Below are positions 14,128-43,100 of a DNA stretch of 64,000 bases, piece after piece. Origin of the DNA: Mitsuaria sp. PDC51 (lineage in GTDB: Bacteria > Pseudomonadota > Gammaproteobacteria > Burkholderiales > Burkholderiaceae_C); NCBI RefSeq assembly GCF_900113225.1, contig NZ_FOZE01000001.1, positions 2,480,001 to 2,544,000 of the forward strand, given 5' to 3'. A program made the translations under genes and the position numbers. Below the pieces are notes generated by a model. That model saw nothing but the letters and a program-made list of their open reading frames with translations. It was not told the origin of the DNA and did no database searches. Positions within the stretch are counted from its first letter, which is position 1. The number at the start of each line of letters is the position of its first letter.

Positions 14128-14410
14128 AGGGCCTCCCTTCTTTGACTGACCGATCGTCTCCGGTTCGGCCGTCGTCACCCTTTGATCACCGGAGAAGGCC
14201 CGCATGATAGGCCGATGGTCACTTGCGTCGCCCCCTCTTCAGGGGGAACCCTGAGGGGCTGCGCCCGAAACACTTGTGACGACATGTTGCTGGTGCAATT
14301 CGTCAACGTTGTCAGGCCCCTTCCCTATTTATAGGTCTTGGCCGGTCCACGCCACCCCCTATTCGGTGGGGACGCCCATCCGCCGCGCGGGCGATATCGG
14401 GGCCTGCCCT

Positions 14411-14477
14411 GATGCCGGAAATAGCATTGGCCAACTGGAAAATGTGATTGGCCGGGGATCACCCGGCTCCCTAGCAT
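14411..14477 (+). promoter_or_regulatory. Arabinan-regulon promoter, copy 1 (TonB receptor)
   Basis: One of three 67-base segments with the same layout. Elements here: GATGCC at 14411, AGCATT at 14423, TGATTGG at 14445 and CTCCCTA at 14467, with a -10-like TAGCAT at 14472. The block at 14445-14461 is an imperfect 17-bp dyad beginning TGAT and ending ATCA. A -35-like TTGGCC lies 18 bp ahead of the -10. The leader would be about 78 bases. The rest of the 434-base gap (14128-14561) holds only a CCCCCT/AGGGGG stem near 14231 and an isolated TTGGCCAA at 14427. Likely controlled by the LysR or GntR regulator of this locus. Confidence 0.65.
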
Positions 14478-14561
14478 TTGCTCCGCTCGACAACAACCCC
14501 ACGGCGGTTGTGGAGTCGCCCGGTCACCGGGTTGACACGCCAGAAAAACGACGGAGACAAC

Positions 14562-17192
14562 ATGAGCAAGATTCCCTTCGGGCTGCGGACCACCGTGGCC
14601 GCGGCCGCCCTCCTCGGGGCGGCGATCCAGGTCCAGGCGCAGAGCCAGCCCCCGGCCGACGAGAAGAAGTCGGACGACACCAAGCTGGAAACCGTGGTCG
14701 TGAGCGGCATGCGCCGCTCGGCCGAATCGGCGCAGACCATCAAGCAGAACAGCGACCAGGTGGTGGATTCCATCGTCGCCGAGGACATCGGCAAGTTCCC
14801 CGACAAGAACGTCGCCGAGATCCTGGGCCGCGTCACCGGCGTGCAGATCCAGCGCAACAACGGCGAAGCCAGCGGCGTGATCGTGCGCGGCCTGGGCGGC
14901 GTGGTGACGCTGCTCAACGGGCGCGAATTCTTCTCGGACTCGGGCCGCAGCCTGTACCTGTCGGACGTGCCCGCGACGATGCTCAAGCGCATCGACGTCT
15001 ACAAGACGCAGGAGGCCTCGCTGCCCGAGGGCGGCACCGCCGGCGTCATCGACGTGCGTACCAACCGCCCGCTGGACTTCAAGGACGCGCAGCTGGTGCT
15101 GTCGGCCCGCGGCGAGCATCGCGACAAGGCCAAGACCAACAACCCGGACATCTCCGGCATGGCCTCCAACCGCTGGAAGACCGACCTGGGCGAGATGGGC
15201 GCGCTGATCGGCCTGTCCTACCAGCGCGGGCAGTACCACGACGAGACCGGCTTCGTCGGCAACCCGGAATCCATCGTCGTGCCGGGCCGCGCGAACCCGG
15301 TGCTGGGCACCGACTCGATGGGGCGCGTCTTCGCGCTGGGCGACCGCAAGCGCGTCGCCGGCAACTTCGCCCTGCAGTGGAAGCCCAACAAGGATTCGGA
15401 GATCTACCTCGAAGGCTTCGGCACCCGCATCGACCATCGCTATCAGCTGTCCTTCCTGGTGGGCGGCATCGGCATGTTCAACGACGGCGCCTGGCGCCCG
15501 GTGCCCGGCACCGTCATCACGACCAAGCCCGGCACCGACAACCTGGACACCGCGACCAACACCAACTACCCGGGCTGGGGCTTCACCTCCACGCAGGCCA
15601 AGCATGACGAGGTCGGCAACAACCAGCTGGCGCTGGGCGGCAACTGGCGACTCACCGACCGCCTCAAGGTCAGCACCGAACTGGCGCGCACCCGCAGCGT
15701 GATCGACTGGGTCAACCGCATCCTGGACACCGGCTACAGCCCGACCAGCACCGTCGCCGCGGTGCGAGGCGGTGGCGGCTACATCGACTACCCGGGCCTG
15801 GACCTGACCGACGCCGCGAACTTCCGCGTCAACGGCGGCGTCGACGTGCGCGGCCGCCGCGAAGGCAAGTCCACCGACTGGCGCGCCGATGCCGACTACG
15901 ACATGGGCGACGGCTTCCTGAAGGAGCTCAGCACCGGCGTGCGCCTGGCCAAGCGCGACGCGATGTCGATCAACACCAACATGCCGTGGACGACCTCGTT
16001 CTCGGCGGTGGGCCAGACCCTGACCAACTTCCCCGGCATCTACGAGGTTTCGCCCAGGACCTACGGCGACTTCGGCGTGAAGCAGTACGTCTTCGCGTCC
16101 CGCGACTGGCTGCTCGACAACGGCGAGGCCTTCCGGCAGATGCTGACCGGCAGCACGGCGCTGACGCCGTACGACCCGATGACGCTCTTCGACGACACGG
16201 AGAAGACCAGCGCCCTCTACGGCCGCGCCAAGTTCGGCTTCGACGCTTGGGGCGTGCCGGTCTCCGGCGTCGCCGGCCTGCGCGTGGTCCGCACCGAGCA
16301 GACGCTGCGCGGCAACTCCCGCGACGCGTCGACCAACGTCATCACGCCGGTGCTGGTCGACACCTCGCGCACCGACACGCTGCCGACGCTGTCGCTGCGC
16401 GCCGACCTGACCCCGCGCCTGGTCAGCCGCCTGGTCTGGGGCAAGACGATCGAGCGTCCCAACTTCGTCGACTACAACCCGGGCCAGACCAACACGCCTC
16501 CCGGCGGCGGCGTCACCTTCGGCACCCTGGCCGGCGGCAACCCCAACCTGAAGCCGACCGAGTCCAACAACACCGACGTGGCGCTCGAGTACTACTTCGC
16601 CAAGACCGGCTCGGTCACCGGCACGGTCTTCGAGCACAAGTTCAAGAACCGCGTCATGACGCAGACGACGCAGACGACGATCAACGGCGTGCCCTACAAC
16701 GTCACGCAGCCGATCAACGTCACCCGCGCCAACCTGCATGGCTACGAGCTGAGCTACCGCCAGTTCTACGACTTCCTGCCGGGCTGGCTGGGCGGTTTCG
16801 GCATGGAGGCCAACTTCACCTTCATGACGGGCAAGCAGACGCAGCCCGACGGCACCGACGGCCCCTTCCTCGGCCAGTCCAAGAAGGCCTACAACATCGT
16901 CGGCATGTACGAGCGCAACGGCATCTACGCGCGCCTGGCCTACAACTGGCGCGACAAGTTCCTGGCCGAGTCGCCGTACCGCAGCACCCAGCACCAGCTG
17001 TGGGTGGCGCCGCTCAAGACCCTGGACCTGTCGCTGGGCTACGAGCTGACCAAGCAGATGACGGTGTCGCTGGACGTGACCAACCTGCTCAATCAGGCCT
17101 ATCACGACTACTTCGACAAGGACCCGTCGCTGGTGCGTGACGTGCGCTACTACGACCGCACCGTGGCCGTGGGCCTGCGCTGGAAGCTCTGA
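14562..17192 (+). CDS. TonB-dependent receptor for arabino-oligosaccharides
   Basis: 876 residues with a signal peptide (cleavage near V-Q-A-Q). A TonB-box-like stretch (E-T-V-V-V-S-G) precedes the plug domain, which contains I-G-K-F-P-D-K-N-V-A-E-I-L-G-R-V-T-G-V-Q; this fits the Xanthomonas/Caulobacter-type carbohydrate receptors. A 22-stranded barrel follows and ends in an aromatic-rich strand with V-G-L-R-W-K-L. The protein should take up oligosaccharides across the outer membrane with TonB energy. Arabino-oligosaccharide as substrate is inferred from the GH43 gene 10 bases downstream and the whole locus. The ATG at 14562 follows GGAGA; a further 28 codons upstream are open but do not encode a signal peptide. 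Confidence 0.9.
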   Translation: MSKIPFGLRTTVAAAALLGAAIQVQAQSQPPADEKKSDDTKLETVVVSGMRRSAESAQTIKQNSDQVVDSIVAEDIGKFPDKNVAEILGRVTGVQIQRNNGEASGVIVRGLGGVVTLLNGREFFSDSGRSLYLSDVPATMLKRIDVYKTQEASLPEGGTAGVIDVRTNRPLDFKDAQLVLSARGEHRDKAKTNNPDISGMASNRWKTDLGEMGALIGLSYQRGQYHDETGFVGNPESIVVPGRANPVLGTDSMGRVFALGDRKRVAGNFALQWKPNKDSEIYLEGFGTRIDHRYQLSFLVGGIGMFNDGAWRPVPGTVITTKPGTDNLDTATNTNYPGWGFTSTQAKHDEVGNNQLALGGNWRLTDRLKVSTELARTRSVIDWVNRILDTGYSPTSTVAAVRGGGGYIDYPGLDLTDAANFRVNGGVDVRGRREGKSTDWRADADYDMGDGFLKELSTGVRLAKRDAMSINTNMPWTTSFSAVGQTLTNFPGIYEVSPRTYGDFGVKQYVFASRDWLLDNGEAFRQMLTGSTALTPYDPMTLFDDTEKTSALYGRAKFGFDAWGVPVSGVAGLRVVRTEQTLRGNSRDASTNVITPVLVDTSRTDTLPTLSLRADLTPRLVSRLVWGKTIERPNFVDYNPGQTNTPPGGGVTFGTLAGGNPNLKPTESNNTDVALEYYFAKTGSVTGTVFEHKFKNRVMTQTTQTTINGVPYNVTQPINVTRANLHGYELSYRQFYDFLPGWLGGFGMEANFTFMTGKQTQPDGTDGPFLGQSKKAYNIVGMYERNGIYARLAYNWRDKFLAESPYRSTQHQLWVAPLKTLDLSLGYELTKQMTVSLDVTNLLNQAYHDYFDKDPSLVRDVRYYDRTVAVGLRWKL

Positions 17193-17202
17193 TCCCGCCG
17201 CG

Positions 17203-18171
17203 ATGCTCGACGACCCGCAAGTCCTGACCCCGCTGATCCCGCAGCGGGCCGATCCCCACCTGACCCGTCATGTGGACGGGGCCGGCCGCGCGCGCTACTT
17301 CTTCACCGCCTCGGTGCCGGAGTACGACCGCATCGAGCTGCGCGCCGCGGACGCGTGGCAGGACCTGCCCCACGCGACGCCGCGGGTGGTCTGGCGCAAG
17401 CCGGACACGGGGCGTTGGAGCGAGCTGATCTGGGCGCCGGAACTCCATTTCCGCCAGGGCGCCTGGTACCTCTACTTCGCGGCGGCGCCGAGCCGCGAGA
17501 TCGTCGGCGGCCTGTTCCAGCACCGCATGTATGCGCTGCGGAACCGGTCGCCCGATCCGATGGCCGGCGAGTGGGAGTTCCTCGGGCAGATCGACACCGG
17601 CATGGACACCTTCTGCCTGGACGCGACGACCTTCGAGCATCGCGGCCAGCTCTACTACCTGTGGGCGCAGAAGGCGCTCGACATCCCGGGCAATTCCAAC
17701 CTCTACATCGCGCCGATGCGCACGCCCTGGCAGCTGGCCGGCGCACCGGTGATGCTGAGCAAGCCGGAGTTCGACTGGGAATGCCGCGGCTTCCTGGTCA
17801 ACGAGGGCCCGTCGGTGCTGCACAGCCACGGCAAGGTCTTCATCAGCTACTCGGCCAGCGCGACCGACGAGAACTACGCGATGGGCCTGCTGTGGATGGA
17901 CGAGTCCGCCGATCCGATGGATCCGGCGAGCTGGACCAAGTCGCCGGCGCCGGTGCTGACCACGAGCCCCACCCAGCCGATCTTCGGCCCGGGGCACAAC
18001 AGCTTCGCGCTGGACGAGGACGGCCGCACGGTACTGCTCGTCTATCACGCCCGCACCTACACCGAGATCGTCGGCGATCCGCTCTGGAACCCCGATCGCC
18101 ACACCTTCGTCAAGCACCTGGGATGGACCGCGGACGGCATGCCCGACTTCGGCGACGCCGGATTGGCGTGA
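17203..18171 (+). CDS. GH43 exo-alpha-1,5-L-arabinofuranosidase, cytoplasmic
   Basis: 322 residues without a signal peptide. GH43 five-bladed propeller residues are in place: base Asp17 (Q-R-A-D-P-H), the pKa-modulating Asp140 (C-L-D-A-T-T-F) and acid Glu201 (V-N-E-G-P). The Q-R-A-D-P start and the F-T-A-S-V-P-E-Y-D-R-I-E-L block are those of the exo-1,5-arabinofuranosidase branch (subfamily 26 as I recall it). It should release L-arabinose from the ends of imported arabino-oligosaccharides. It follows the TonB receptor gene by 10 bases, so both belong to one transcript. A second member of the same branch is encoded at 43101-44054; the two share the active-site blocks but differ clearly in between. 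Confidence 0.88.
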   Translation: MLDDPQVLTPLIPQRADPHLTRHVDGAGRARYFFTASVPEYDRIELRAADAWQDLPHATPRVVWRKPDTGRWSELIWAPELHFRQGAWYLYFAAAPSREIVGGLFQHRMYALRNRSPDPMAGEWEFLGQIDTGMDTFCLDATTFEHRGQLYYLWAQKALDIPGNSNLYIAPMRTPWQLAGAPVMLSKPEFDWECRGFLVNEGPSVLHSHGKVFISYSASATDENYAMGLLWMDESADPMDPASWTKSPAPVLTTSPTQPIFGPGHNSFALDEDGRTVLLVYHARTYTEIVGDPLWNPDRHTFVKHLGWTADGMPDFGDAGLA

Positions 18172-18236
18172 TATCCGATTCGATATCGGAATCCCGGAAG
18201 TTTTGATTGGATCCGAATCACCTGTCTCCCTAGCAT
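18170..18236 (+). promoter_or_regulatory. Arabinan-regulon promoter, copy 2 (arabonate dehydratase)
   Basis: Same 67-base layout as copy 1: GATATC at 18170, GATATC at 18182, TGATTGG at 18204, CTCCCTA at 18226 and -10-like TAGCAT at 18231. Here the central 17-mer TGATTGGATCCGAATCA (18204-18220) is nearly a perfect palindrome. The upstream pair gives ATATC-N7-GATAT, which fits the T-N11-A dyad of LysR regulators. The first two bases overlap the stop codon of the GH43 gene. Leader of about 24 bases. Confidence 0.7.
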
Positions 18237-18266
18237 GGCTCACGGAGACATCACCCACTACCTGCA

Positions 18267-20015
18267 ATGACCGAGGCCAAGAAGAAGATCAAGCTGCGTT
18301 CCGCCGAATGGTTCGGGACCCAGGACAAGAACGGATTCATGTACCGGTCCTGGATGAAGAACCAGGGCATCCCGGACCATGAGTTCGAGGGCAAGCCGAT
18401 CATCGGCATCTGCAACACCTGGTCCGAGCTGACGCCGTGCAACGCGCACTTCCGCAAGCTGGCCGAGCACGTCAAGCGCGGCATCCTGGAAGCGGGCGGC
18501 TATCCGGTGGAGTTCCCGGTGTTCTCCAACGGCGAGTCCAACCTGCGCCCGACCGCGATGCTCACGCGCAACCTGGCCAGCATGGACGTCGAGGAATCGA
18601 TCCGCGGCAACCCGATGGATGCCGTCGTGCTGCTGGTGGGCTGCGACAAGACCACGCCGGCGCTGCTGATGGGCGCGGCCAGCGTGGACCTGCCCACCAT
18701 CGTGGTCACCGGCGGGCCGATGCTCAACGGCAAGCTGAACGGCAAGAACATCGGCTCGGGCACCGCCGTCTGGCAGCTGCACGAGCAGGTCAAGGCCGGC
18801 GAGATCTCGATGCACGACTTCATCGCCGCCGAGGCCGGCCATTCGCGCTCGGCGGGCACCTGCAACACGATGGGCACGGCCTCGACGATGGCCTGCATGG
18901 CGGAGTCGCTGGGCACCTCGCTGCCGCACAACGCCGCGATCCCGGCGGTCGACGCGCGCCGCTACGTGCTGGCGCACCTCTCCGGCATGCGCATCGTCGA
19001 GATGGTCTGGGAGGACCTGCGCCTGTCCAAGATCCTGACCCGCGAGGCCTTCGAGAACGCGATCCGCACCAACGCCGCGATCGGCGGCTCGACCAACGCG
19101 GTCATCCACCTGAAGGCGATCGCCGGCCGCATCGGCGTGCCGCTGGAGCTGGAGGACTGGACCCGCATCGGCCGCGGCACGCCCACGCTGGTGGACCTGC
19201 TGCCCTCGGGCCGCTTCCTGATGGAAGAGTTCTATTACGCCGGCGGCCTGCCCGGCGTGCTGCGCCGGCTCGGCGACAACGGCCTGCTGCCGCACAAGGA
19301 CGCGCTGACCGTCAATGGCAAGACGCTCTGGCAGAACTGCCACGACGCACCGATCTATGACGAGGAAGTGATCCGCCCGATCGCCAAGCCCCTGATCGAG
19401 GACGGCGGCATCTGCGTGCTGCGCGGCAACCTCGCGCCGCGCGGCGCGGTGCTCAAGCCGTCGGCGGCGACGCCCGCGCTGATGCAGCATCGCGGCCGGG
19501 CCGTGGTGTTCGAGGACTTCGACGACTACAAGGCGCGGATCATGGATCCGAACCTCGAGGTCGACGCCGATTCCATCCTCGTCATGAAGAACTGCGGCCC
19601 GATGGGCTATCCCGGCATGGCCGAGGTCGGCAACATGGGCCTGCCGCCCAAGCTGCTGGCGCAGGGCATCAAGGACATGGTCCGCATCTCCGACGCCCGC
19701 ATGAGCGGCACCGCCTACGGCACCGTGGTGCTGCACGTCGCGCCGGAGGCCAAGGCCGGCGGCCCGCTGGCGGTGGTGCGCGAGGGCGACTGGATCGAGC
19801 TCGACTGCGCCGCCAACCGGCTGCACCTGGACATCAGCGACGCGGAGCTGCAGGCGCGCCTGGCCGACTGGGCCGCGAAGCAGCAGCCCGATCCCGCGGA
19901 CCAGAGCGGCTACCGCAAGCTCTATGTCCAGCACGTGCTGCAGGCCGACGAGGGCTGCGACTTCGATTTCCTGCGTGGCTGCCGCGGTTCCGCGGTGCCG
20001 CGGCACTCGCACTGA
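18267..20015 (+). CDS. L-arabonate dehydratase (IlvD/Edd family)
   Basis: 582 residues. It dehydrates L-arabonate to 2-keto-3-deoxy-L-arabonate, the third step of the oxidative L-arabinose route. Iron-sulphur ligands Cys58, Cys126 and Cys199 sit one residue before the positions I recall for the Rhizobium L-arabinonate dehydratase (59, 127, 200), which favours a [2Fe-2S] sugar-acid dehydratase over dihydroxy-acid dehydratase. The segments G-C-D-K-T-T-P and A-G-T-C-N-T-M-G-T-A-S-T are diagnostic. It has its own conserved promoter and its own terminator, so it is a single-gene unit although the other pathway genes lie 33 kb away. D-xylonate or D-fuconate activity is a reasonable side possibility. 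Confidence 0.9.
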   Translation: MTEAKKKIKLRSAEWFGTQDKNGFMYRSWMKNQGIPDHEFEGKPIIGICNTWSELTPCNAHFRKLAEHVKRGILEAGGYPVEFPVFSNGESNLRPTAMLTRNLASMDVEESIRGNPMDAVVLLVGCDKTTPALLMGAASVDLPTIVVTGGPMLNGKLNGKNIGSGTAVWQLHEQVKAGEISMHDFIAAEAGHSRSAGTCNTMGTASTMACMAESLGTSLPHNAAIPAVDARRYVLAHLSGMRIVEMVWEDLRLSKILTREAFENAIRTNAAIGGSTNAVIHLKAIAGRIGVPLELEDWTRIGRGTPTLVDLLPSGRFLMEEFYYAGGLPGVLRRLGDNGLLPHKDALTVNGKTLWQNCHDAPIYDEEVIRPIAKPLIEDGGICVLRGNLAPRGAVLKPSAATPALMQHRGRAVVFEDFDDYKARIMDPNLEVDADSILVMKNCGPMGYPGMAEVGNMGLPPKLLAQGIKDMVRISDARMSGTAYGTVVLHVAPEAKAGGPLAVVREGDWIELDCAANRLHLDISDAELQARLADWAAKQQPDPADQSGYRKLYVQHVLQADEGCDFDFLRGCRGSAVPRHSH

Positions 20016-20036
20016 CCGTGCGCGTGGACTGAAGAA

Positions 20037-20066
20037 CGAAGGACCGGGAACGGTCCTTCGTCGTTT
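20037..20066 (+). terminator. Intrinsic terminator after the arabonate dehydratase gene
   Basis: CGAAGGACCG (20037-20046) pairs with CGGTCCTTCG (20051-20060) around GGAA, followed by TCGTTT. A second, imperfect stem (20061-20095) lies just upstream of the GH51 gene. No clear separate promoter for GH51 was found, so read-through is likely. Confidence 0.8.
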
Positions 20067-20114
20067 CGGCACCGCAGAGTGCCGACGAAACGATAACGAC
20101 ACCTGGAGACAAGC

Positions 20115-21668
20115 ATGACCATGAAGAGGACGGCCTTTGGCCTGGCCGCGGGCGCCCTGCTCGCCTGGAGCGCGCACGCGGCCGATGTTCAGCTCACCGT
20201 CGATGCGGGCAAGCCCGGTCCGGTGATCCACCGCAATGTCTACGGCCAGTTCGCCGAGCATCTGGGCACCGGCATCTACGAAGGCATGTGGGTCGGGCCC
20301 GACTCCAAGATCCCCAACGTGCGCGGCTGGCGCAAGGACGTGGTGGGCGCGCTCAAGGCGCTGAAGGTGCCGCTGGTGCGCTGGCCCGGCGGCTGCTTCG
20401 CCGACGAGTACCACTGGCGCGAAGGCATCGGCCCGCGCGGCAAGCGGCCGGTCAAGGTCAACACGCACTGGGGCGGTGTCGCGGAGAACAACGCCGTCGG
20501 CACGCACGAGTTCTTCGACCTGGTCGAGCAGCTCGGCGCCGAGGCCTATGTCAACGGCAACCTGGGCACCGGCAGCGCGCAGGAGATGGCCGAGTGGCTG
20601 GAGTACATGACGGCCGAGGGCAACTCCACGCTGGCGCAGCTGCGCCGCAAGAACGGTCGCGACAAGCCGTTCAAGGTCAGCTACTTCGCCGTGGGCAACG
20701 AGGCCTGGGGCTGCGGCGGCAACATGACGCCGGAGTACTACGTCAACCAGTACCGCCAGGTCGCGACCTTCCTGAAGACGCCGGACAACAACCGTCCGAA
20801 GTTCATCGCCAGCGGCGGCAATGCCAACGACACGCGTTGGACCGAGGTGCTGTCGACGCAGAACATCAAGTTCAACTTCGACGCGATCGGCCATCACTAC
20901 TACGTGTTCCCGAGCGGCAAGTGGGAAGGCAAGGGATCGGCGGCCGGCTTCAAGGAAGACGAGTGGATCTCGCTGCTGTCCTACACGCAGGACTTCGAGA
21001 AGACCGTCGCCGCCAACATCGCGGTCCTGGACAAGAACGACCCGCAGAAGCGCATCGGGCTCTACCTGGATGAATGGGGCAGCTGGTACGACCCGGAGCC
21101 GGGCACCAACCCGGGCTTCCTGGTCCAGCGCAACACGCTGCGCGACGCGGTCCTGGCCGCCCTGCACTTCCACATGTTCCATGCGCATGCGGACCGGGTG
21201 CACATGACCAACATCGCGCAGATGGTCAACGTGCTGCAGGCCATGATCCACACGGACAAGACCCGCATGGTGCTGACGCCCACGTATCACGCCTTCGCGC
21301 TGTACACGCCGTTCCAGGACGCGACCACGCTGCCGGCGACGCTGAGCGGCAACCCCGAGTACGCGCTGGCCGGCAAGTCGCTGCCGGCGGTGAGCGCGTC
21401 GGCCGCGCGCGGCAAGGATGGCAAGCTCTACCTGGCGCTGATCAACGTGAACCCGCGCGAGGCGCAGACGGTGAAGCTGGCCGTGCAAGGCGCCGCCGCG
21501 CGCCGCGCCGTCGGCCAGGTGCTGAGCGCCGAGGCCATGGACAGCGAGAACACCTTCGCCAAGCCCGAGGCCGTCAAGCCCAAGGCCTACGAGGCGCAAG
21601 CCAAGGACGGCGCGCTGAGCCTGCCGCTGCCGCCCAAGTCCATCGTCGTCGTCGCGCTGGAGGGCTGA
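20115..21668 (+). CDS. GH51 alpha-L-arabinofuranosidase, secreted
   Basis: 517 residues with a signal peptide (cleavage near A-H-A-A, residue 23). It removes alpha-L-arabinofuranosyl units, such as the side chains of branched arabinan. The (beta/alpha)8 domain shows acid/base Glu196 in V-G-N-E-A-W-G and nucleophile Glu320 in Y-L-D-E-W-G; the C-terminal part is the usual all-beta domain. It acts in the periplasm or at the surface, in contrast with the cytoplasmic GH51 at 44106-45725. It starts a three-gene run with the GH43 lipoprotein (2-base gap) and the GH127-like gene (overlapping stop/start). GGAG lies 8 bases before the ATG. Confidence 0.9.
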   Translation: MTMKRTAFGLAAGALLAWSAHAADVQLTVDAGKPGPVIHRNVYGQFAEHLGTGIYEGMWVGPDSKIPNVRGWRKDVVGALKALKVPLVRWPGGCFADEYHWREGIGPRGKRPVKVNTHWGGVAENNAVGTHEFFDLVEQLGAEAYVNGNLGTGSAQEMAEWLEYMTAEGNSTLAQLRRKNGRDKPFKVSYFAVGNEAWGCGGNMTPEYYVNQYRQVATFLKTPDNNRPKFIASGGNANDTRWTEVLSTQNIKFNFDAIGHHYYVFPSGKWEGKGSAAGFKEDEWISLLSYTQDFEKTVAANIAVLDKNDPQKRIGLYLDEWGSWYDPEPGTNPGFLVQRNTLRDAVLAALHFHMFHAHADRVHMTNIAQMVNVLQAMIHTDKTRMVLTPTYHAFALYTPFQDATTLPATLSGNPEYALAGKSLPAVSASAARGKDGKLYLALINVNPREAQTVKLAVQGAAARRAVGQVLSAEAMDSENTFAKPEAVKPKAYEAQAKDGALSLPLPPKSIVVVALEG

Positions 21669-21670
21669 GC

Positions 21671-25854: not shown

Positions 25855-25983
25855 CGGTGCACTGACGGCACTTCCAGGCGCTCAGACGGCTCGGACGACC
25901 CAGGCGGCCCGATCGGATCGAGCGGATCGGACAACCGGGGGCGACCGGGGGGCGAGAACGGGTCGATTCGCGGCGACAGATTG

Positions 25984-25997
25984 CCGCAAGGTTGCGG
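25984..25997 (+). promoter_or_regulatory. Palindrome upstream of the MipA/OmpV-like gene
   Basis: CCGCAAGGTTGCGG has perfect 6-base arms around GG and lies 41 bases ahead of the ATG. A -10-like TAGAAT follows at 26012, with no good -35. It is a candidate operator for a two-component or TetR-type regulator. Confidence 0.35.
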
Positions 25998-26037
25998 CGG
26001 GGACCTCTTCCTAGAATCCCGCAACCTGTTTTCGTCC

Positions 26038-26892: not shown

Positions 26893-26998
26893 GCAATCGC
26901 AGGTCCGCTCCCGCCGCCCCTCGTTACTGCCCCTCATCACCGCTCGCCGTCACTGCTTCCGTCACCGCGCCTGTCACCGACTGCCGCCACCGCCAGCC

Positions 26999-28162: not shown

Positions 28163-28225
28163 CGGCGACGCGCCGTGATCGGCGCGCTGCCGTCGCAGGC
28201 CTCGTTCGAAAGCGCTCAGTTGTGC

Positions 28226-29344
28226 TCAGCTGTGCGGCCAGCCCAGGGCTGCCAACGCGTCGTCGTAGTCCTCAGTCGAGGCCGCGTCGAGCCGGGCGGT
28301 GTCGGCTTGTTGGCCGAGCGATGCAAGGCAAAGCAGCGTCGCGCCGCCGAAGGCGATCAGATCCTCTGCCGCAGCCACCGGGGCGTCGTGGCCGAGCGCC
28401 CGCGACAGGCGCTGGCGCAGCCGGTGACAGACGTAGGTCGACACGACGGCGCCCACCGTGCCGGCCAGCGCCGCCGGCCATGAACGCCCACCCGCCAGCG
28501 CGGCACCGGAGATCGCGCCGCTGATCGCGCGCGCGGCGAGGCCGGGCGGATCGGTGCGATCGGGCGTCGACGGCAGCTTGTCGACGATCAGCTCGCCGAG
28601 GGCCATCGGCGTGGTCAGCGCCACCGCGGGCGTCGTGCCGAGCATCGCCAGCGGGGAGTCCTTCAGGTCGATCCAACCGAGCCTGGCCGCCCAGCTCGCG
28701 GTCACCAGCGGCGCGCTGGTGCGCGGCCCCGCGGTCGCACCGAGCAGGAAGGCCATGGCCAGCGTCCGGCGCGAGTCCGCCACCGGGCGGGTGACGATCG
28801 CGACACGTCGCGCCTTCGCCTGGCGGATCGCCGCCGCGCCGGCTCGCGCATCGCCGAAGAGCCGGCGGAAGCAGCGGCGGGCGGACTCGGTGAACGCGCC
28901 GTAGACGAGGTGCGAGACATACGAATAGGGATGCGACTGGACCGGCGCCCGCGTGACCGGATCGCCAAAGCGCATGGCGGGCACCAGGCCCTCGTCCAGC
29001 AGCGTCGCGGTGGCGATGCCGAAGGCAGCGCCCCGCCCCCAGGCGGCCAGCGGCCGGCGTTCCGCCACGGCGCCGTAGAGGCCGCCGACCAGCGATCCCA
29101 CCGCGTAGTGCACCGCCTCGCCCGCCGCCGGCCGATGGCGTGACGGCAGCCGGCGGCCGCCCAGGCGGGCGAGCCGATCGGCGGCCCGCTCGGTGGAGGG
29201 CCAGCCGCGCACGCCGGAGGTGATGCCCACGCGCGCGAGCAGGTCCTGGAACGCCGTCATCGCCGCGGCGCCGATCAGTCCGCCGGCCAGGCCGGCCGCG
29301 GCGCCCAGCGGAAGGTCGGAACGACAGGGAGGTGACGTGTTCAT
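28226..29344 (-). CDS. DUF1440-DUF4126 fusion membrane protein
   Basis: 372 residues. The N-terminal half (A-A-A-G-L-A-G-G-L-I-G-A-A-A-M-T-A-F-Q-D near residues 14-33, then G-S-L-V-G-G-L-Y-G) looks like the DUF1440/YagU membrane family. The C-terminal half (A-F-L-L-G-A-T-A-G-P-R-T-S-A-P-L through G-E-L-I-V-D-K-L-P-S-T-P) looks like DUF4126. Both are inner-membrane families of unknown function; joining them in one chain suggests they act together. The ATG at 29344 has a good AAGGAG. It lies 83 bases upstream of, and is convergent with, nothing; the MocR gene follows behind it in the same direction. YagU is linked to acid resistance in E. coli, which gives no firm clue here. Confidence 0.6.
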   Translation of the reverse strand: MNTSPPCRSDLPLGAAAGLAGGLIGAAAMTAFQDLLARVGITSGVRGWPSTERAADRLARLGGRRLPSRHRPAAGEAVHYAVGSLVGGLYGAVAERRPLAAWGRGAAFGIATATLLDEGLVPAMRFGDPVTRAPVQSHPYSYVSHLVYGAFTESARRCFRRLFGDARAGAAAIRQAKARRVAIVTRPVADSRRTLAMAFLLGATAGPRTSAPLVTASWAARLGWIDLKDSPLAMLGTTPAVALTTPMALGELIVDKLPSTPDRTDPPGLAARAISGAISGAALAGGRSWPAALAGTVGAVVSTYVCHRLRQRLSRALGHDAPVAAAEDLIAFGGATLLCLASLGQQADTARLDAASTEDYDDALAALGWPHS

Positions 29345-29430
29345 GGGGACTCCTTGGCTGACGAAGCCCGCACTGCGGCAAGGCCCGTGCCTTGCGGGTC
29401 GACCGGTCGCCGACCAGCGCGATGCAGGGC

Positions 29431-30882
29431 TCACGCGTCCGGCCGCCGCGCCGTCCCGGCCGGGGCGAATCGCGCCAGCGTCTCGACCACGCGGTCGCAG
29501 GCGCGCTCGACCTGCGTCGCGGACGCCGTGGCCACGCTGAGCATCAATCCGGACCGGGCCTGCTCCGGCCGGGCGAACCAGACCGACAGCGGTGCCGGCG
29601 CGATGCCGAAGGCGAACAGCGCGCGGGCGACCGCCAGGTCGGACACACCGTCGGGCGTGCGGACCAGGACCGCCAGCGCCGCCGGGTGGCTGTCGCCCAG
29701 GCCGCGATCGCGCAGCGCCCGCAGCAGCCCCTCGCGCTGCGCCAGGTACAGCCGCTTGGTCCTGCGCAGATGGCGCAGGTAGTGCCCGTCGCGCATGAAC
29801 GCGGCGACCGCCAGCTGCGCCGCCGGTCCGGGGGGCGGCGCCAGGCAGGCGGCCACCTCACCCAGGCGCGCCGCCAGCGACGCCGGCGCCACGACAAAGC
29901 CCAGTCGCAGCCGCGGATCGATCGTCTTGCTGAAGGAGCCGATGTGGAGGACGCGGCCGTGGCGATCCAACGATGCCAGCGCCGGGGCGGCGCGCCCCTG
30001 CAGCTGCAGCTCGCTCAGGTAGTCGTCCTCGACGATCCAGCCGCCGGTGCTGGCGGCCCAGTCCATCAGCCGCAGCCGGCGTCGCAGGGACATCGTCACG
30101 CCCAGCGGCGCCTGCTGCCCGGGCGTGACCACCGCGAGCGCCGCATCGGGCGCGTCGCGCCAGCCGGCGTCGACATCCAGGCCTTCCTCGTCCACGAGTA
30201 CCGGAACGGGTGTCAGCCGCCCGAGCTCGAGCGCGTGGCGCGTGAAGAAGAAGCCGGGCTCCTCCATCCAGGCGCGCCGCCCCTCGAGACCGAGCGCGCG
30301 CAAGGCGAGGCCTAGTCCCGCCGCGTAGCCGCCGGTGACCAGCACCTGGTCGGGAGAACACACCAGCCCGCGCGCCACCGCGAGGTAGCCGGCGATCTCG
30401 CGCCGCAGCGCCAGTTCGCCGCGAGGGTCGGGATAGAGCGCCGCGCCGCTGGTCTCCGCCGCCAGCGCGCGCGTCCGGAGCCGGGCCATCAGCTTGGCCG
30501 GCAGGCTGTCGCGCGAGGGAATGCCCGGCTGGAACAGCCCGGGACCGGCGGTCAGCTCGCGATACATCGACACGAAGGCGCCCGGGTCCAGCGCTTCGTC
30601 GCTGCCACGCGCCCGCGACGGCCGCTCGGCGACACGGGTGCCGGCAGCGCGCGAGGCCTCGATCAGCTGGTCCGCCGCAAGCTTCTCGTAGGCGACGCGC
30701 ACCGTGCCGCGCGACACGCCCAGTTGGGCCGCGAGGTCGATCCACGACGGCAGCCGCATGCCGGGCGTCAGCACCGACCGCTCGATCGCGGCCGAGATGC
30801 CGCGATGGATCTGGTCGGTGAGCGGCATGGCCGCGGACTTGTCGAGCGTGAGCGGCAGTGGCGGGTGCGGCGAGGAGGTCAT
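29431..30882 (-). CDS. MocR/PdxR-type GntR regulator with aminotransferase domain
   Basis: 483 residues: a GntR winged helix at about 15-85 (G-V-S-R-G-T-V-R-V-A-Y-E-K-L) and a fold-type I aminotransferase domain to the end. The PLP lysine is in G-S-F-S-K-T. Other cofactor contacts are readable (V-T-G-G-Y, E-D-D-Y). MocR proteins bind PLP or its external aldimine and control neighbouring genes, commonly vitamin B6 or amino-acid genes. The divergent neighbour is an AhpD-like gene at 31151; between them lie eight 8-bp repeats. The ATG at 30882 is chosen because the winged helix follows at the usual distance; longer frames include the repeat array. Confidence 0.88.
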   Translation of the reverse strand: MTSSPHPPLPLTLDKSAAMPLTDQIHRGISAAIERSVLTPGMRLPSWIDLAAQLGVSRGTVRVAYEKLAADQLIEASRAAGTRVAERPSRARGSDEALDPGAFVSMYRELTAGPGLFQPGIPSRDSLPAKLMARLRTRALAAETSGAALYPDPRGELALRREIAGYLAVARGLVCSPDQVLVTGGYAAGLGLALRALGLEGRRAWMEEPGFFFTRHALELGRLTPVPVLVDEEGLDVDAGWRDAPDAALAVVTPGQQAPLGVTMSLRRRLRLMDWAASTGGWIVEDDYLSELQLQGRAAPALASLDRHGRVLHIGSFSKTIDPRLRLGFVVAPASLAARLGEVAACLAPPPGPAAQLAVAAFMRDGHYLRHLRRTKRLYLAQREGLLRALRDRGLGDSHPAALAVLVRTPDGVSDLAVARALFAFGIAPAPLSVWFARPEQARSGLMLSVATASATQVERACDRVVETLARFAPAGTARRPDA

Positions 30883-30928
30883 CGGAGGCCTGCGGGGCAA
30901 GGGGATGGCACGGAACGGGACGGCAGTG

Positions 30929-30992
30929 GCGAAACCGCGAAACCGCGAAACCGCGAAATGGCGAGACGGCGAGACGGCGAGACGGCGAGACG
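30929..30992 (+). repeat. Eight tandem 8-bp repeats in a divergent promoter region
   Basis: 64 bases made of eight units: three GCGAAACC, one GCGAAATG and four GCGAGACG. They start 47 bases upstream of the MocR start codon and 159 bases before the AhpD-like start codon. Downstream at 31018-31031 is a short inverted repeat, GATTC-ttgc-GAATC. The two related blocks of identical units suggest expansion by slipped-strand copying. Because 8 is not a multiple of 3 and the array is not in a known coding sequence, unit-number change would alter promoter spacing rather than a protein. Confidence 0.85.
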
Positions 30993-31150
30993 AAAAGGTA
31001 TTGGCTCGTAGTACAGCGATTCTTGCGAATCTTGGGCCTTCGCATTGCACCACTGGCGGCGAAGAATGGCGCTCATCGATGACGCGGTCCGTTGGCAGCG
31101 TCACCGTCCCCGCCTCGGGCGATGCCGCCCTACCCCTTCAGGAGTCCCTC

Positions 31151-31612
31151 ATGACCCAACGTCTCGATTACACCCAGGTCTCGCCCGCCGGCGTCAAGGC
31201 GCTCGGCGGCGTCTACGGCTATGTAACGCAGAGCGGCCTGCCCGCCGCGCTGGTGGAACTGGTCTTCCTGCGGATCTCGCAGATCAACAACTGCGCCTAC
31301 TGCCTGGACATGCACACCCGCGACCTATTGAAGAAGGGCGTGCCGATCGAGAAGCTCGCCCTGGTGCAGGCCTGGGAGGAAGGCGGCGCGCTGTTCGATG
31401 CCCGGGAGCGCGCGGCGCTCGCCTGGGCCGAATCGGTGACGCGCGTGGCGAGCACCGGCGTCCCGGATGCCGACTTCGCCGCGGCGCATGCGGTGTTCAG
31501 CGAGAAGGAACTGGTCGACCTGACGATCGCGATCGGCCTCATGAACACCTACAACCGCCTCGCGATCAGCTTCCGCAACACGCCGCAGGCGGTCGCGATG
31601 GCGGCACGCTGA
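31151..31612 (+). CDS. AhpD-like carboxymuconolactone decarboxylase family protein
   Basis: 153 residues, cytoplasmic. The redox motif C-A-Y-C-L-D-M-H (Cys48, Cys51, His55) is that of AhpD-like peroxidase-associated proteins, so an alkyl-hydroperoxide or thiol reductase role is more likely than lactone decarboxylation. GGAG lies 6 bases before the ATG. It is divergent from a MocR-type regulator, which is probably its controller. The family forms all-helical hexamers or trimers. The small size and motif position agree with the family. Confidence 0.88.
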   Translation: MTQRLDYTQVSPAGVKALGGVYGYVTQSGLPAALVELVFLRISQINNCAYCLDMHTRDLLKKGVPIEKLALVQAWEEGGALFDARERAALAWAESVTRVASTGVPDADFAAAHAVFSEKELVDLTIAIGLMNTYNRLAISFRNTPQAVAMAAR

Positions 31613-31641
31613 GCGCCAGCCATGGCGCCGCGTCGGGGCGT

Positions 31642-32274
31642 TCAGCCGATTGCCCGGCGCAGGTTCTCGCGGGCGCGTGCCTCGAGGCGCTCGCGCAGCA
31701 TCGCTGTGCTGTACAGCACCGGCCGGTCGAGGAAGGTGCGCAGGATCTGTCGACGCTTGCGGCGGAACAGGAAGCCGGGCACGAACGCGTATTCATCGCG
31801 GATCTGACGTTCGTACTCGTCGAAGCGCGGGCGCTCGGCGCCGAGGATGGCCAGGTCGATGTCCACGAGCACCTGCTCGTCGACATTGCCCGGCACGCCG
31901 TCGTGCCGCGTGACGAGCACCAGCTGCCGTACCCGCTCGGCCGCCGCGGCCGCCGCGCCGGCGCTGGTCAATGCGCGGTGCGCCCATTCGGCGCTTCGTT
32001 CCTCGTTGCCGGATCCCTTGACGTCATAGATGGCGTCGTGGAACCACAGCGCCATCTCGACCTCCTCGGGGTGCTCCGCCAGATCGCGGACCTGCTCGAG
32101 CAGCGCCAGGCATTCCTCGAGGTGCTGTTGCGTGTGGTAGTGGCGTTGCGGTTCGGCATAGCCGGCGAGCAGCTCGTCGCGCAGCGCGATGCCGTCCGGG
32201 CCGCTGGTTCCGGCGCCAGGTCCGACCAGGGCGGACCAAGCGCGCCGCCAGGAGCGTTCGAAGAGAGCGTTCAT
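31642..32274 (-). CDS. HD-domain predicted metal-dependent phosphohydrolase
   Basis: 210 residues. His and Asp ligands of an HD domain are visible: R-H-Y-H-T-Q-Q-H-L-E near residue 44 and W-F-H-D-A-I-Y-D near 76, then R-H-D-G and a later Asp cluster (D-I-D-L-A-I-L-G). This set is typical of the family annotated as predicted metal-dependent HD superfamily phosphohydrolase, whose substrates are not established. A C-terminal basic stretch (F-R-R-K-R-R-Q) is noted. It is convergent with the AhpD-like gene and lies 60 bases from the divergent dehydratase gene. Confidence 0.8.
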   Translation of the reverse strand: MNALFERSWRRAWSALVGPGAGTSGPDGIALRDELLAGYAEPQRHYHTQQHLEECLALLEQVRDLAEHPEEVEMALWFHDAIYDVKGSGNEERSAEWAHRALTSAGAAAAAAERVRQLVLVTRHDGVPGNVDEQVLVDIDLAILGAERPRFDEYERQIRDEYAFVPGFLFRRKRRQILRTFLDRPVLYSTAMLRERLEARARENLRRAIG

Positions 32275-32334
32275 GTGGGCGCGATGGTAGCGACTCCCGG
32301 GGCTCGATCGGCCACTGCCCTACGATGCGGCCCC

Positions 32335-33246
32335 ATGGCCATCCACATCACCACCCCGACCGTCGACTCCGACGCCTTCAGCATCGCCGATCAACGCGTC
32401 TGGCTCAAGCTCGAAGCCCTGCAGCCTTGCGGCTCGTTCAAGCTGCGCGGCGTCGGCCATGCCTGCGAGGTCCATGCGGCGCGCGGCGCGCAGCGATTGC
32501 TGTCGTCATCGGGCGGCAATGCTGGCATGGCGGTCGCGCATGCGGGCAGGCGGCTCGGGCTGCCGGTGGTGGTGGTCGTTCCCGAGACCACGCGAGAGTG
32601 GCCGAAGACGCTGATCCGGCGCCAGGGCGCGGAGGTCATCGTCCACGGCAAGAGCTGGATGGAGGCCAATGACTTCCTGATGGCGATGCGCCAGCCGACG
32701 GACGCGTTCATCCATCCGTTCGACGATCCACTGCTGTGGGAGGGTCACGCCACGATGATCGAGGAGGCCGCCACGCAGATGCCCAAGCCGGACGCGGTCG
32801 TGCTGTCGGTCGGTGGTGGCGGGCTGATGAGCGGCGTGCTGCAGGGGATGCATGCCGTCGGATGGAGCGACGTGCCGCTTGTCGCGGCCGAAACCGTCGG
32901 CGCGGACTCGTTGCATGCGGCCATCGCCGCGGGCGGGCTGGTGACGCTCGATGCAATCACGAGCATCGCGACCTCGCTGGGCGCACGCCGCGTCAGCGAG
33001 CAGGCCTTCGCGTGGACGAAGCGGCATGCGGTCACGGCGACCACGGTGAGCGACGCGGAGGCGGTGCAAGCTTGCCTCACCGTGGCGAAAGAGCATCGAC
33101 TGATCGTCGAACCGGCGTGCGGCGCGGCGGTCGCCGCCGCGCTGAAGCGCTCGGTGCCCGTGTTGCAGGGCGCCCGGAACGTGCTGGTGATCCTGTGCGG
33201 CGGGGCTTGTGCGACGTATGAGGATCTGCAGGTGTGGGCGGGGTGA
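32335..33246 (+). CDS. PLP-dependent L-serine/threonine dehydratase-like enzyme
   Basis: 303 residues, fold-type II PLP enzyme. Lys36 in G-S-F-K-L-R-G is the Schiff-base residue; S-S-G-G-N-A-G binds the carboxylate; V-G-G-G-G-L-M-S-G holds the PLP phosphate; a late C-G-G-A-C loop lies near the C-terminus. The length of about 300 without a regulatory ACT domain matches the catabolic serine dehydratase branch rather than biosynthetic IlvA. It would convert serine or threonine to a 2-oxo acid and ammonia in the cytoplasm. It starts 60 bases from the divergent HD gene. Confidence 0.85.
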   Translation: MAIHITTPTVDSDAFSIADQRVWLKLEALQPCGSFKLRGVGHACEVHAARGAQRLLSSSGGNAGMAVAHAGRRLGLPVVVVVPETTREWPKTLIRRQGAEVIVHGKSWMEANDFLMAMRQPTDAFIHPFDDPLLWEGHATMIEEAATQMPKPDAVVLSVGGGGLMSGVLQGMHAVGWSDVPLVAAETVGADSLHAAIAAGGLVTLDAITSIATSLGARRVSEQAFAWTKRHAVTATTVSDAEAVQACLTVAKEHRLIVEPACGAAVAAALKRSVPVLQGARNVLVILCGGACATYEDLQVWAG

Positions 33247-33260
33247 GGCGATGAAGCCGG

Positions 33261-33674
33261 CTAGGCGCCGGTGTGACGGTGCCGGCTGTCGAAGTCTTGC
33301 CTCGCTTCTCGGAAGCGGTCCGCGTTCCCGACGATCCAAGTCCACAGCGGGACCATGCGAACCAGCAGCTCCATGCCCATGTCGGTGAGCTCGTACTCGA
33401 CTCTGGGAGGCACCTCTTCAAAGTCGTGACGAAGCACCAAGCCGTCGCGTTCGAGTTGTCTCAGGGTGAGCGTCAACATGCGCTGAGTCACCCCGTGCAT
33501 GCGCCTGCCGATCTCGGCGTGGCGAAGCCTGCCATACACACCGAGGGTGTGCACCACGCCGAGTGACCAACGACTTCCGGCATGCGCGAGCACCTCGCGC
33601 CGCACGCCGTCGTCGTCATCTCGCAGACCGTCACACACGGTCTGCGAATACTGAAGGATTTCGTCTCTGTTCAC
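33261..33674 (-). CDS. HxlR-family transcriptional regulator
   Basis: 137 residues with one winged-helix domain of the HxlR type: R-W-S-L-G-V-V-H-T-L, R-L-R-H-A-E-I-G-R-R-M-H-G-V-T-Q-R-M-L-T-L-T-L-R-Q-L split over helices, and the wing L-E-R-D-G-L-V followed by P-P-R-V-E-Y-E-L-T. Such regulators often sense aldehydes or redox stress and control a divergent gene. Here the divergent gene is the NmrA-like reductase at 33767. The GTG at 33674 is the start; no good ribosome site is seen. A TGTTCA direct repeat (9-base period) overlaps the start and could be its own operator. Confidence 0.88.
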   Translation of the reverse strand: MNRDEILQYSQTVCDGLRDDDDGVRREVLAHAGSRWSLGVVHTLGVYGRLRHAEIGRRMHGVTQRMLTLTLRQLERDGLVLRHDFEEVPPRVEYELTDMGMELLVRMVPLWTWIVGNADRFREARQDFDSRHRHTGA

Positions 33675-33766
33675 AGTGTTCAGCCCTCGGTATCACGCGT
33701 GTGCCTTCTTACGTCCGCGCTCCTGCGTGACTAGACTGGCGCCACTTCCTTGCAGTGGCCTACACG

Positions 33767-34720
33767 ATGAACCGATCCGATCCTAACGCTACGTCTCAGA
33801 ACATCCTCGTCCTCGGTGCCGGAGAGCTCGGCCTGCCTGTGCTGCGCCATCTCGCTCGCCGGGCGAAAGACGTGAAGGGTGCCAGGATCAGCGTGCTGCT
33901 GCGCGCGAGCGCTGTTGAATCCAACGATCCGGGCAAGCAGCGGGATATCGGGGAGATTCGACACCTGGGCATCGAGATCGTCGTGGGCGACCTCGTGAAG
34001 AGCTCCATCGATGAACTCGCCACGGTCTTCGCGCGCTATGACACGGTCATCGGTTGCGCAGGCTACGCCGCGGGAATCGACACGCCGATGAAGCTGGCGC
34101 GAGCCGCCCTGCAGGCCCGCATCCCAAGGTATTTCCCCTGGCAGTTCGGCGTCGATTTCGACGTGATCGGCCGAGGCAGTCCACAGGACATCTTCGATGC
34201 TCAGCTGGATGTGCGCGAGTTGCTGCGCGGCCAGCAAGAGACGGAGTGGGTCATCATCTCGACCGGCATGTTCATGAGCTACCTGTTCGAGCCCGAGTTC
34301 GGCGTGGTGGATCTCCAAGCGAATGCCGTCCATGCCCTGGGCAGCCTCGACACCGCGGTGACGCTGACGACACCGGACGACATCGGCGCACTGACGGCCG
34401 AGGTCGTCTTCTCCAAGCCTCGAATCCGCGACGAGATCGTTTACCTCGCAGGCGACACTGTCACCTATGCGGAGGTGGCCGACAAGCTGCAATCGGGCCT
34501 GGGCCGCCCCTTCAGCCGCCACGAGTGGACAGAGCAGTACCTGTTGGACGAGCTGGCGCGCGACCCGAACAACATGATGCGAAAGTACCGCGCGGCTTTT
34601 GCCCAAGGACGGGGTGTGGCATGGGAGAAGAGCGGCACATTCAATCAGCACCGCGCCATTCCTGTTACTGACGTGGCGTCCTGGATCAATGCCAATCTCG
34701 CTTCGAGTCGTCGCGACTAG
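33767..34720 (+). CDS. NmrA/isoflavone-reductase-like NAD(P)-binding protein
   Basis: 317 residues with an N-terminal Rossmann fold (I-L-V-L-G-A-G-E-L-G) and the atypical-SDR layout of the NmrA/phenylcoumaran-reductase-like group (F-P-W-Q-F-G-V-D-F-D, then T-G-M-F-M-S-Y-L). The canonical catalytic Tyr/Lys pair is not obvious. Members reduce small aromatics or act as redox sensors. Control by the divergent HxlR regulator is likely. A GTG four codons upstream (33755) is an alternative start. The codon usage and GC content of this gene look slightly lower in GC than the surrounding genes, which may point to later acquisition together with hxlR. Confidence 0.75.
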   Translation: MNRSDPNATSQNILVLGAGELGLPVLRHLARRAKDVKGARISVLLRASAVESNDPGKQRDIGEIRHLGIEIVVGDLVKSSIDELATVFARYDTVIGCAGYAAGIDTPMKLARAALQARIPRYFPWQFGVDFDVIGRGSPQDIFDAQLDVRELLRGQQETEWVIISTGMFMSYLFEPEFGVVDLQANAVHALGSLDTAVTLTTPDDIGALTAEVVFSKPRIRDEIVYLAGDTVTYAEVADKLQSGLGRPFSRHEWTEQYLLDELARDPNNMMRKYRAAFAQGRGVAWEKSGTFNQHRAIPVTDVASWINANLASSRRD

Positions 34721-34743
34721 TTCGGCTTGCCGGGCGCATCCCC

Positions 34744-35178
34744 CTACATCTTCTCGCCGGGCAACTCGCTCGCGGCCTTCGCCCAGGCGATGAAGACGGC
34801 TTCGTCGAGCGGGTCCTGTTCGCTCACGTGAAGATAGCGCGCATGCGCGGTCTTCGACTCGACCGGCGGCATCGGGTCCAGCGACCTGCCGTTGAAGAAC
34901 GCCACCTTCACGTAGCGCGTCATCACGTGGATGCCGAGGAACCAGGTCTCGCCGTCCATGCCGTAGAGCGGGGAGTTGTACTTCACCGCCTTGCGGACCT
35001 CGGGCACCGCGTCGGTGACCAGCGCGTCCAGGCGCCGGACCACGATCTGCTTCCAGCCCGTGAGGGCCGCGATGTAGGCCTGCACCGGCGCGTCGCCGTG
35101 GCCCTTCGGGATCTGAGGATTGCCGCCGGCGAGCAGCACGCCCGTGGCGGCCGGGCTCGCCGTCTTCTGCTTCGTCAT
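34744..35178 (-). CDS. DUF1801 domain protein
   Basis: 144 residues. The segment V-K-Y-N-S-P-L-Y-G-M-D-G-E-T-W-F-L-G-I-H is the hallmark of the DUF1801 (YdhG/YdeI-like) fold, which binds unknown small ligands. The function is unknown; no partner gene is nearby. The ATG at 35178 is preferred over an open extension of 28 codons that is rich in Arg. Confidence 0.75.
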   Translation of the reverse strand: MTKQKTASPAATGVLLAGGNPQIPKGHGDAPVQAYIAALTGWKQIVVRRLDALVTDAVPEVRKAVKYNSPLYGMDGETWFLGIHVMTRYVKVAFFNGRSLDPMPPVESKTAHARYLHVSEQDPLDEAVFIAWAKAASELPGEKM

Positions 35179-35267
35179 GCGCGCGTCCGTCTGTCGAGGA
35201 GATCGGCGGACCTTAACACCGCCTTCACGTTGACGCCCGCTGACTGCGTCGAGCCCCCTCACCCCTT

Positions 35268-35291
35268 CCCTCTCCCCCTCGGGGGAGAGGG
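35268..35291. repeat. Intergenic palindromic repeat
   Basis: CCCTCTCCCCC and GGGGGAGAGGG are perfect 11-base arms around TC, flanked by CTCACCCC and GGGTGAA. A degenerate second copy follows at about 35342-35370 (CACTCTCGTCCCTCAGGGAG). These look like the REP-type C/T-rich palindromes scattered between genes in many high-GC bacteria. The remainder of the 355-base gap (35179-35533) holds the promoter listed next. Confidence 0.7.
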
Positions 35292-35394
35292 GGTGAATCC
35301 TGGATCGCCCCCTTGCTCTCCCTATTGCTCTCCACTCGCTCCACTCTCGTCCCTCAGGGAGAGGGAGTGAATCTGGGCGGGGATCTCACGGAGT

Positions 35395-35461
35395 GATATC
35401 GATCAGGACATCGCCGGCACTAGAAATGTGATTGGTCCGGCATCTCTGGCCTCCCTACGAT
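35395..35461 (+). promoter_or_regulatory. Arabinan-regulon promoter, copy 3 (furanose importer)
   Basis: Third copy of the 67-base layout: GATATC at 35395, GACATC at 35407, TGATTGG at 35429, CTCCCTA at 35451 and -10-like TACGAT at 35456. All four distances equal those in copies 1 and 2. The right half of the central dyad is weaker here (ATCT instead of ATCA). Leader of about 66 bases to ytfQ. Confidence 0.7.
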
Positions 35462-42968: not shown

Positions 42969-43100
42969 ATCGGGCGGCAGGCTATCACGGGCGGCCGGCC
43001 GGGAGACTCGCGACAAATCCTCCCTTGGCGGGCGGCGCGAGGCGTTGCAGGCAGCCGACCTGGCGCAGCGCCGGCCGCCGCCTCGCGCGTCGACCCGTCG

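Follow-up and report, generated by a model that had tools for sequence, protein, structure and literature searches.

A predicted LysR-controlled arabinose/arabinan regulon in Mitsuaria and other Burkholderiales, built on a rigid 67-bp operator-promoter unit

The described systems closest to the one reported here come from three bacterial groups. For Halomonas ara loci, a LysR-type regulator, AraR, and a GntR-type partner, AraR2, have been predicted (accessible text of PMC5507952). In Agrobacterium, the LysR regulator GbpR regulates chvE in the presence of sugars (available portion of PMC4086400), and in Sinorhizobium the site of PcaQ has ATA-N10-TAT arms, the same as those found here; the same source also gives an odd-centred LysR-type form, CTATA-n9-TATAG (excerpted text of PMC5002191). 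Here we describe three 67-bp promoter segments in a stretch of 64,000 nucleotides from Mitsuaria sp. PDC51 (contig NZ_FOZE01000001.1, positions 2,480,001 to 2,544,000 of the forward strand; the window in what follows), which precede genes for a TonB-dependent receptor, an L-arabonate dehydratase-like protein and a YtfQ-like sugar-binding protein. These segments very probably function as sigma-70 promoters that depend on an activator and belong to one arabinose/arabinan regulon, with the LysR-type protein encoded at 41242-42192 as the predicted activator. It is fairly likely that they belong to an undescribed, order-wide Burkholderiales arabinose/arabinan regulon, in which a PcaQ/GbpR-like LysR protein and a rigid 67-bp operator-promoter unit coordinate outer-membrane uptake by TonB receptors or porins, ABC import, oxidative arabinose breakdown and an arabinanase that is secreted, and much of which is found by a 75-column model alone.

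The likeness to Halomonas AraR lies in the oxidative L-arabinose pathway, in a LysR gene divergent from the ara operon and in the GntR partner (PMC5507952, same accessible text). In eight Halomonas-group loci examined, including L078 from Halomonas sp. HL-48, one of the genomes in that paper, ATTGG stands at +37 after GATA-N10-TATC. The site stands beside a LysR gene in seven of the eight, namely those in which this gene was located, and the encoded proteins are 40-42% identical to the LysR protein of the window. The two systems differ in spacing (37 as opposed to 36) and in arrangement, since in the window TonB receptor, dehydratase and importer form separate units and the LysR gene lies apart; moreover, the Halomonas system is itself predicted only, and its operators are compared here via the loci. 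GbpR is alike in being a sugar-responsive LysR protein that controls a periplasmic sugar-binding protein (PMC4086400, same portion), and similar targets, ChvE (L160) and GguC/AraD1 (L142, L143, L147), follow sites found in our order-level sample with the model R1 described below. It is unlike in being alphaproteobacterial, and it is likened here by its description. PcaQ shares the even-centred ATA-N10-TAT site, and its model TIGR02424 is the top NCBIfam model for the window's LysR protein. However, PcaQ governs an aromatic (protocatechuate) regulon, and the score of 181.9 bits lies far below the cut-off of 303.8. The original prediction regarded the signal as not described. For Burkholderiales this holds within the open literature, where we found no description, most subscription papers, RegPrecise and supplements being outside the reach of that search; the available parts of PMC7057948, PMC10107873 and PMC4495286 do not mention the signal. 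A LysR AraR with a predicted motif has been reported in Halomonas (PMC5507952, in part).

The three segments (14411-14477, 18170-18236 and 35395-35461, here segments 1, 2 and 3) align without gaps, and their elements lie at the offsets originally claimed. The hexamer at +1 is GATGCC in segment 1 and GATATC in segments 2 and 3, and the hexamers at +13 are AGCATT, GATATC and GACATC. TGATTGG stands at +35 (14445, 18204 and 35429) and has no other copy in the window on either strand, and CTCCCTA at +57 (14467, 18226 and 35451), which has one further window copy at 35318, leads into TAGCAT, TAGCAT and TACGAT. The two hexamers had been proposed to be the recognition/activation pair of a LysR activator. 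On sequence grounds they are better read as the arms of one recognition palindrome, ATRYC-N6-RRYAT (16 bp, of the ATA-N10-TAT type), with the activation half in the TGATTGG element that overlaps the -35. Over all columns of 67 aligned sites, the top dyad centre is column 12.5, with 69% complementarity as compared to a mean of 26%, and a second, weak dyad at column 46 is merely AT-N9-AT.

All elements lie on the forward strand. The candidate recognition palindromes are ATGCCGGAAATAGCAT at the TonB-receptor promoter (14412-14427), whose counterparts in L120 and L023 read ATGCC-N6-GGCAT, ATATCCGATTCGATAT at the arabonate dehydratase promoter (18171-18186) and ATATCGATCAGGACAT at the YtfQ promoter (35396-35411). 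The putative activation-side elements, each overlapping the -35, are TGATTGG...GATCACC (14445-14463), TGATTGGATCCGAATCACC (18204-18222) and TGATTGGTCCGGCATCTCT (35429-35447), and the -10 boxes are TAGCAT (14472-14477), TAGCAT (18231-18236) and TACGAT (35456-35461). Transcription starts, their positions being assumed, are predicted at about 14484, 18243 and 35468, which gives predicted leaders of 78, 24 and 66 nucleotides. In the dehydratase promoter, GATATC shares bases with the stop codon of a GH43 gene (17137-18171), and this promoter is thus internal to a tonB-GH43-dehydratase run.

LysR-type promoters have a dyad recognition site near -65 and a second site near -35 at fixed spacing, and their core is an odd-centred T-N11-A. 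With the start assumed seven bases past the -10, the dyad centres here fall at about -64 and -31, and relative to that start the layout is of the LysR type. The odd-centred core is not found, the palindrome being even-centred ATA-N10-TAT like the PcaQ site. GATATC had been called rare in the window; there are five copies, one more than had been noted. The extra copy, at 14393 and 18 bp ahead of segment 1, is probably incidental, because L020, a close relative, has it and the five others inspected (L120, L023, L024, L025, L040) do not, and it was rejected as a conserved site.

As had been proposed, the signal can be used to search a genome. Across 5.85 Mb of the own genome, the three segments are the only matches to GATTGG-N14-20-TCCCTA, and the reversed control has none. 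The model R1 consists of 42 sites hand-picked from 127 candidates, without Roseateles-, Pelomonas- or Paucibacter-labelled loci, reverse-strand matches, Halomonas sites of other spacing and some others; this set was used because a first iteration of a position weight matrix (PWM) had drifted to AT-rich sequence and was unconverged when stopped. At E<=10, R1 finds in the own genome segment 2 (6.1e-9), segment 3 (1.1e-4) and nothing else (87 first-look candidates). With R1 as a PWM, the three segments reach 63.3, 45.2 and 28.0, the last value being that of segment 1, and the next window position 2.6. A PWM of 22 sites from relatives, containing no row from the window, gives 76.5, 72.0 (segment 1) and 66.5 versus -3.1 for the next window position, and its largest score across 40 local shuffles is 6.9. 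One might suppose that the similarity is merely that of a common strong sigma-70 promoter of a GC-rich genus plus chance, all the more as TTGGNN and TANNNT are recognisable as -35 and -10 boxes. Yet the strict pattern and R1 match nothing else in 5.85 Mb, and a model that includes the three segments, R2, finds one further strong place (150 of 760 first-look candidates scored, such that further sites may be missed); moreover, the palindrome is conserved across families and the downstream genes are mostly sugar genes. We consider the chance of this explanation close to negligible.

The recurrence of the signal in related bacteria marks it as a real, though conventional, gene-control system. TGATTGG-N13-18-TCCCTA has matches in 11 of 60 genomes (the own and 59 relatives), and two of these, G010 and G013, each have three matches whose order is that of the window. 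Each of four Roseateles-like loci (L023, L024, L025, L040) carries three high sites, before matches to the TonB receptor, the dehydratase and YtfQ, with R1 PWM scores of at least 36.5 as against at most -2.5 for the fourth best. The earlier idea that uptake, catabolism and transport genes share a regulatory promoter layout, presumably of LysR type, is supported. Eighty loci of arabonate dehydratase relatives were scanned, and the upstream sequences of 32 were inspected directly. GATAYC-N6-GATATC or close variants, followed by ATTGG, are found in promoters of Massilia, Duganella, Rugamonas, Janthinobacterium and Ralstonia loci and are absent in several other dehydratase loci (e.g., L045, L046, L074). 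The distance from the strict palindrome to ATTGG is 36 in 15 of 18 pairs (21, 27 and 37 in the other three), and the 42 sites, which come from other genera, align without gaps over 75 columns. In this alignment A5, T6, A19, T20, ATT 40-42 and G44 are invariant, and T65, A66 and T70 of the -10 are nearly so. CTCCC is not kept outside the genus, where the -10 TANNNT alone is retained; it reads as a genus-level sequence, and CTCCCTA, which had been listed among the shared elements, was rejected as a conserved factor site. Three Rhodoferax-labelled dehydratase promoters beside a LysR gene (L060, L089, L101) show a TTGATAT...TATCAA palindrome with ATTCAYTTG replacing ATTGG, which may be a form of the signal that has diverged.

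The genes downstream of the signal mostly concern sugar use. In the genus, 17 of 20 R1 matches (the own two included) lie upstream of dehydratase, YtfQ or TonB receptor orthologues, the exceptions being L118 and L121, which are one place on two strands, and L119. In the order outside the own genome there are 29 matches, 28 of them with the locus fetched. For 26 of the 28, the gene downstream serves sugar uptake or catabolism: six dehydratases, sugar-binding proteins (10 sites), three porins, three AraD1/GguC, and one each of TonB receptor, aldehyde dehydrogenase, aldose epimerase and GH35. Two of these assignments (L139, L156) were judged by eye, and L146 is weak, the start of its gene being distant. 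The remaining two matches, L145 and L148, fit no sugar gene; both are weak and come from genomes without LysR at the cut-off. The original prediction was to be abandoned if the matrix matched random genes as often as sugar genes, and it survived this comparison. In one order genome (G042), two copies of the signal (L160, L161) lie about 137 bp apart with the same ChvE-like sugar-binding protein gene downstream.

The occurrence of the signal follows that of the LysR gene. Among 16 genomes of the genus, the own included, ten have an R1 match (E<=0.1), and a LysR orthologue (at least 88%) is present in the same ten; the remaining six have neither, one of them (G007) having a 46% LysR homologue. 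Fisher's test gives 1.2e-4 for this co-occurrence, a value that overstates the evidence since the genomes are related. In the order-level sample of 300 genomes, which we infer to be Burkholderiales, R1 (E<=0.001) is found in 17, LysR (E<=1e-75) in 15 and both in 14; the samples for R1 and LysR are taken as identical on account of their same genome handles, and the stricter filters lose weak matches, few candidates being scored per genome. In ten of the 14 (G042, G096, G140, G154, G193, G212, G238, G289, G298, G319), the signal is divergent to the LysR match and 21-127 bp from its start; the other four are G000, G058, G091 and G188. A divergent site beside the regulator gene is the classical LysR layout. 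The order test is not wholly independent, because R1 includes LysR-divergent sites from named genomes, although no row of R1 is labelled Roseateles, Pelomonas or Paucibacter. We examined 25 named loci in which the LysR homologue lies on the reverse strand. In 20 of these, the divergent side carries AT-N12-AT together with ATTGG or ATTAG, at a spacing of 36 in 13 and of 37 in seven (Halomonas-group).

Two neighbouring regulators have to be weighed against the LysR protein. A NarL-type response regulator gene (13438-14205), which comes with a histidine kinase gene and is divergent to the TonB receptor gene, adjoins segment 1 and is found in all ten genus genomes with the signal. That its product controls the three promoters is nevertheless extremely unlikely, given that an orthologue is present in 14 of the 16 genus genomes, four of them without an R1 match, and that the 80 loci, searched with flanks of up to 10 kb and in many cases carrying the signal, gave no match of at least 80 bits. 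The other neighbour is a GntR/FCD protein (42207-43016, reverse strand), whose gene lies 14 bp upstream of the LysR gene and which had been named as a candidate alongside it. GntR operators are in general short palindromes, this gene too is present in all ten genus genomes with the signal, and the protein might bind the palindrome as a repressor, with LysR acting elsewhere. Against this, G002 and G004 of the genus have GntR and no R1 match. The signal also stands divergent beside LysR in order genomes that lack GntR at the cut-off used, although this control is weak, because at that cut-off only the own genome among the 300 has GntR. Furthermore, AGTANTACT occurs within 300 bp in 10 of 80 dehydratase promoters, nine of which are among the 17 loci counted with a GntR orthologue (partial or 32-36% GntR matches left out), and of the 70 dehydratase promoters without it eight are in such loci. 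Since promoters in loci with the GntR orthologue tend to carry a different candidate operator, AGTANTACT, GntR is not supported as the regulator of the three segments, and we hold this role to be very unlikely. Both proteins were rejected as the common factor; both occur in signal-free genus genomes. The LysR protein of 41242-42192 appears to be the best candidate regulator, and GntR and the response regulator fit worse.

AGTANTACT itself is likely the operator of GntR, though this pattern, looser than the AGTATTACT described next, has 17 places in the own genome versus 47 for the reversed control and is not enriched as such. A candidate GntR operator outside the LysR signal, AGTATTACT (53707-53715, forward strand), is the sole AGTAWTACT in the genome and precedes other genes. 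It sits between a gene of the dihydrodipicolinate synthase (DHDPS) family and a short-chain dehydrogenase/reductase (SDR) gene, the latter most like D-xylose 1-dehydrogenase (334 bits, below the cut-off of 400). GntR probably acts there and not at the three segments. As AGTANTACT tracks GntR loci and AGTATTACT lies at 53707, two regulators seem to divide the cluster between them.

Several observations weigh against LysR control of the three segments. In the window, some 6 to 28 kb separate the LysR gene from the three promoters; it lies behind GntR, and no signal site precedes it in the R1 PWM scan of the window. Segment 1 has no R1 match at E<=10 in the own genome. GntR co-occurs as well, in 12 of the 16 genus genomes, including all ten with the signal. 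In the order, the signal is found without LysR in G035, G181 and G271 (weak matches), and LysR without an R1 match in G149, alone among the 300 genomes. Five of the 25 LysR-divergent regions (L044, L055, L060, L089, L101) lack the signal in the form of AT-N12-AT with ATTGG/ATTAG, and in L026, L028, L030 and others the site is present and LysR was not found within the fetched flanks. Finally, TGATTGG-N13-18-TCCCTA also occurs in G007, G009, G056 and G059, which are without a LysR orthologue or unscored for LysR; in these four genomes, the palindrome is in register at none of six sites inspected.

The mechanism that we propose is that of a conventional LysR system. A LysR tetramer would place one dimer on the 16-bp ATA-N10-TAT palindrome centred at about -64 and the other on the ATTGG-containing element centred at about -31, which overlaps the -35. 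The effector would be a sugar, probably L-arabinose or an intermediate of the pathway; once bound to it, the tetramer would shift and bring RNA polymerase to the -10 (TANNNT) and the -35 (TTGGNN), which is weak, so that the effect would be activation and not repression. What the sequences themselves show are the elements with their fixed spacing and palindromy, their conservation, the target genes and the co-occurrence with the LysR gene. In Burkholderiales, the oxidative L-arabinose pathway would thereby gain a predicted target set, operator and probable regulator, and a regulator that, as far as we found, has so far been predicted only in Halomonas would be extended to this order. With its specificity, the search model can find members of the regulon in different families, a distant arabinanase gene among them, and a candidate arabinose-sensor promoter is on offer.

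This arabinanase gene belongs to the fourth site of the own genome, L191 (C2:541540-541612, R2 E-value 4.4e-7). The site precedes a GH43 gene whose top match is arabinan endo-1,5-alpha-L-arabinosidase (305 bits, below the cut-off of 480). The R2 places ranked after it (L192, L193, L194, L195) were not accepted; all are partial matches, and L192 is without ATTGG. L192 (also L212, at C2:681793) is a weak, palindrome-only match (E 0.008) about 200 bp or less upstream of a Melibiase_2 gene (alpha-galactosidase-type), and it may be a degenerate member of the regulon.

With respect to the genes of the locus, the TonB-dependent receptor (14562-17192, forward strand) matches TIGR01782 with 601 bits (cut-off 310). 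The dehydratase, an IlvD/Edd protein (18267-20015, forward strand), matches PRK06131 with 965 bits (cut-off 539) and PRK13016, L-arabinonate dehydratase, with 851 bits, just below the cut-off of 882; its closest named relative is from Roseateles sp. YR242 (95%), which points to a probable betaproteobacterium of the Roseateles group. The YtfQ-like sugar-binding protein of an ABC importer (35534-36508, forward strand) scores 392 bits with NF041827, below the cut-off of 510. The LysR protein (reverse strand) has 316 amino acids, with PF00126 at 65 bits and PF03466 at 113 bits, both above cut-off, and thus has the N-terminal HTH_1 and C-terminal LysR_substrate domains and the length of about 300 amino acids that define LysR-type regulators; no solved structure matches it at E<=1e-20. 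Between the YtfQ promoter and the gene divergent to it, at 35250-35370, stretches of CCCTCTCCC/GGGAGAGGG are repeated, with the extra CTCCCTA at 35318 inside, and these repeats look like a terminator-type or intergenic repeat.

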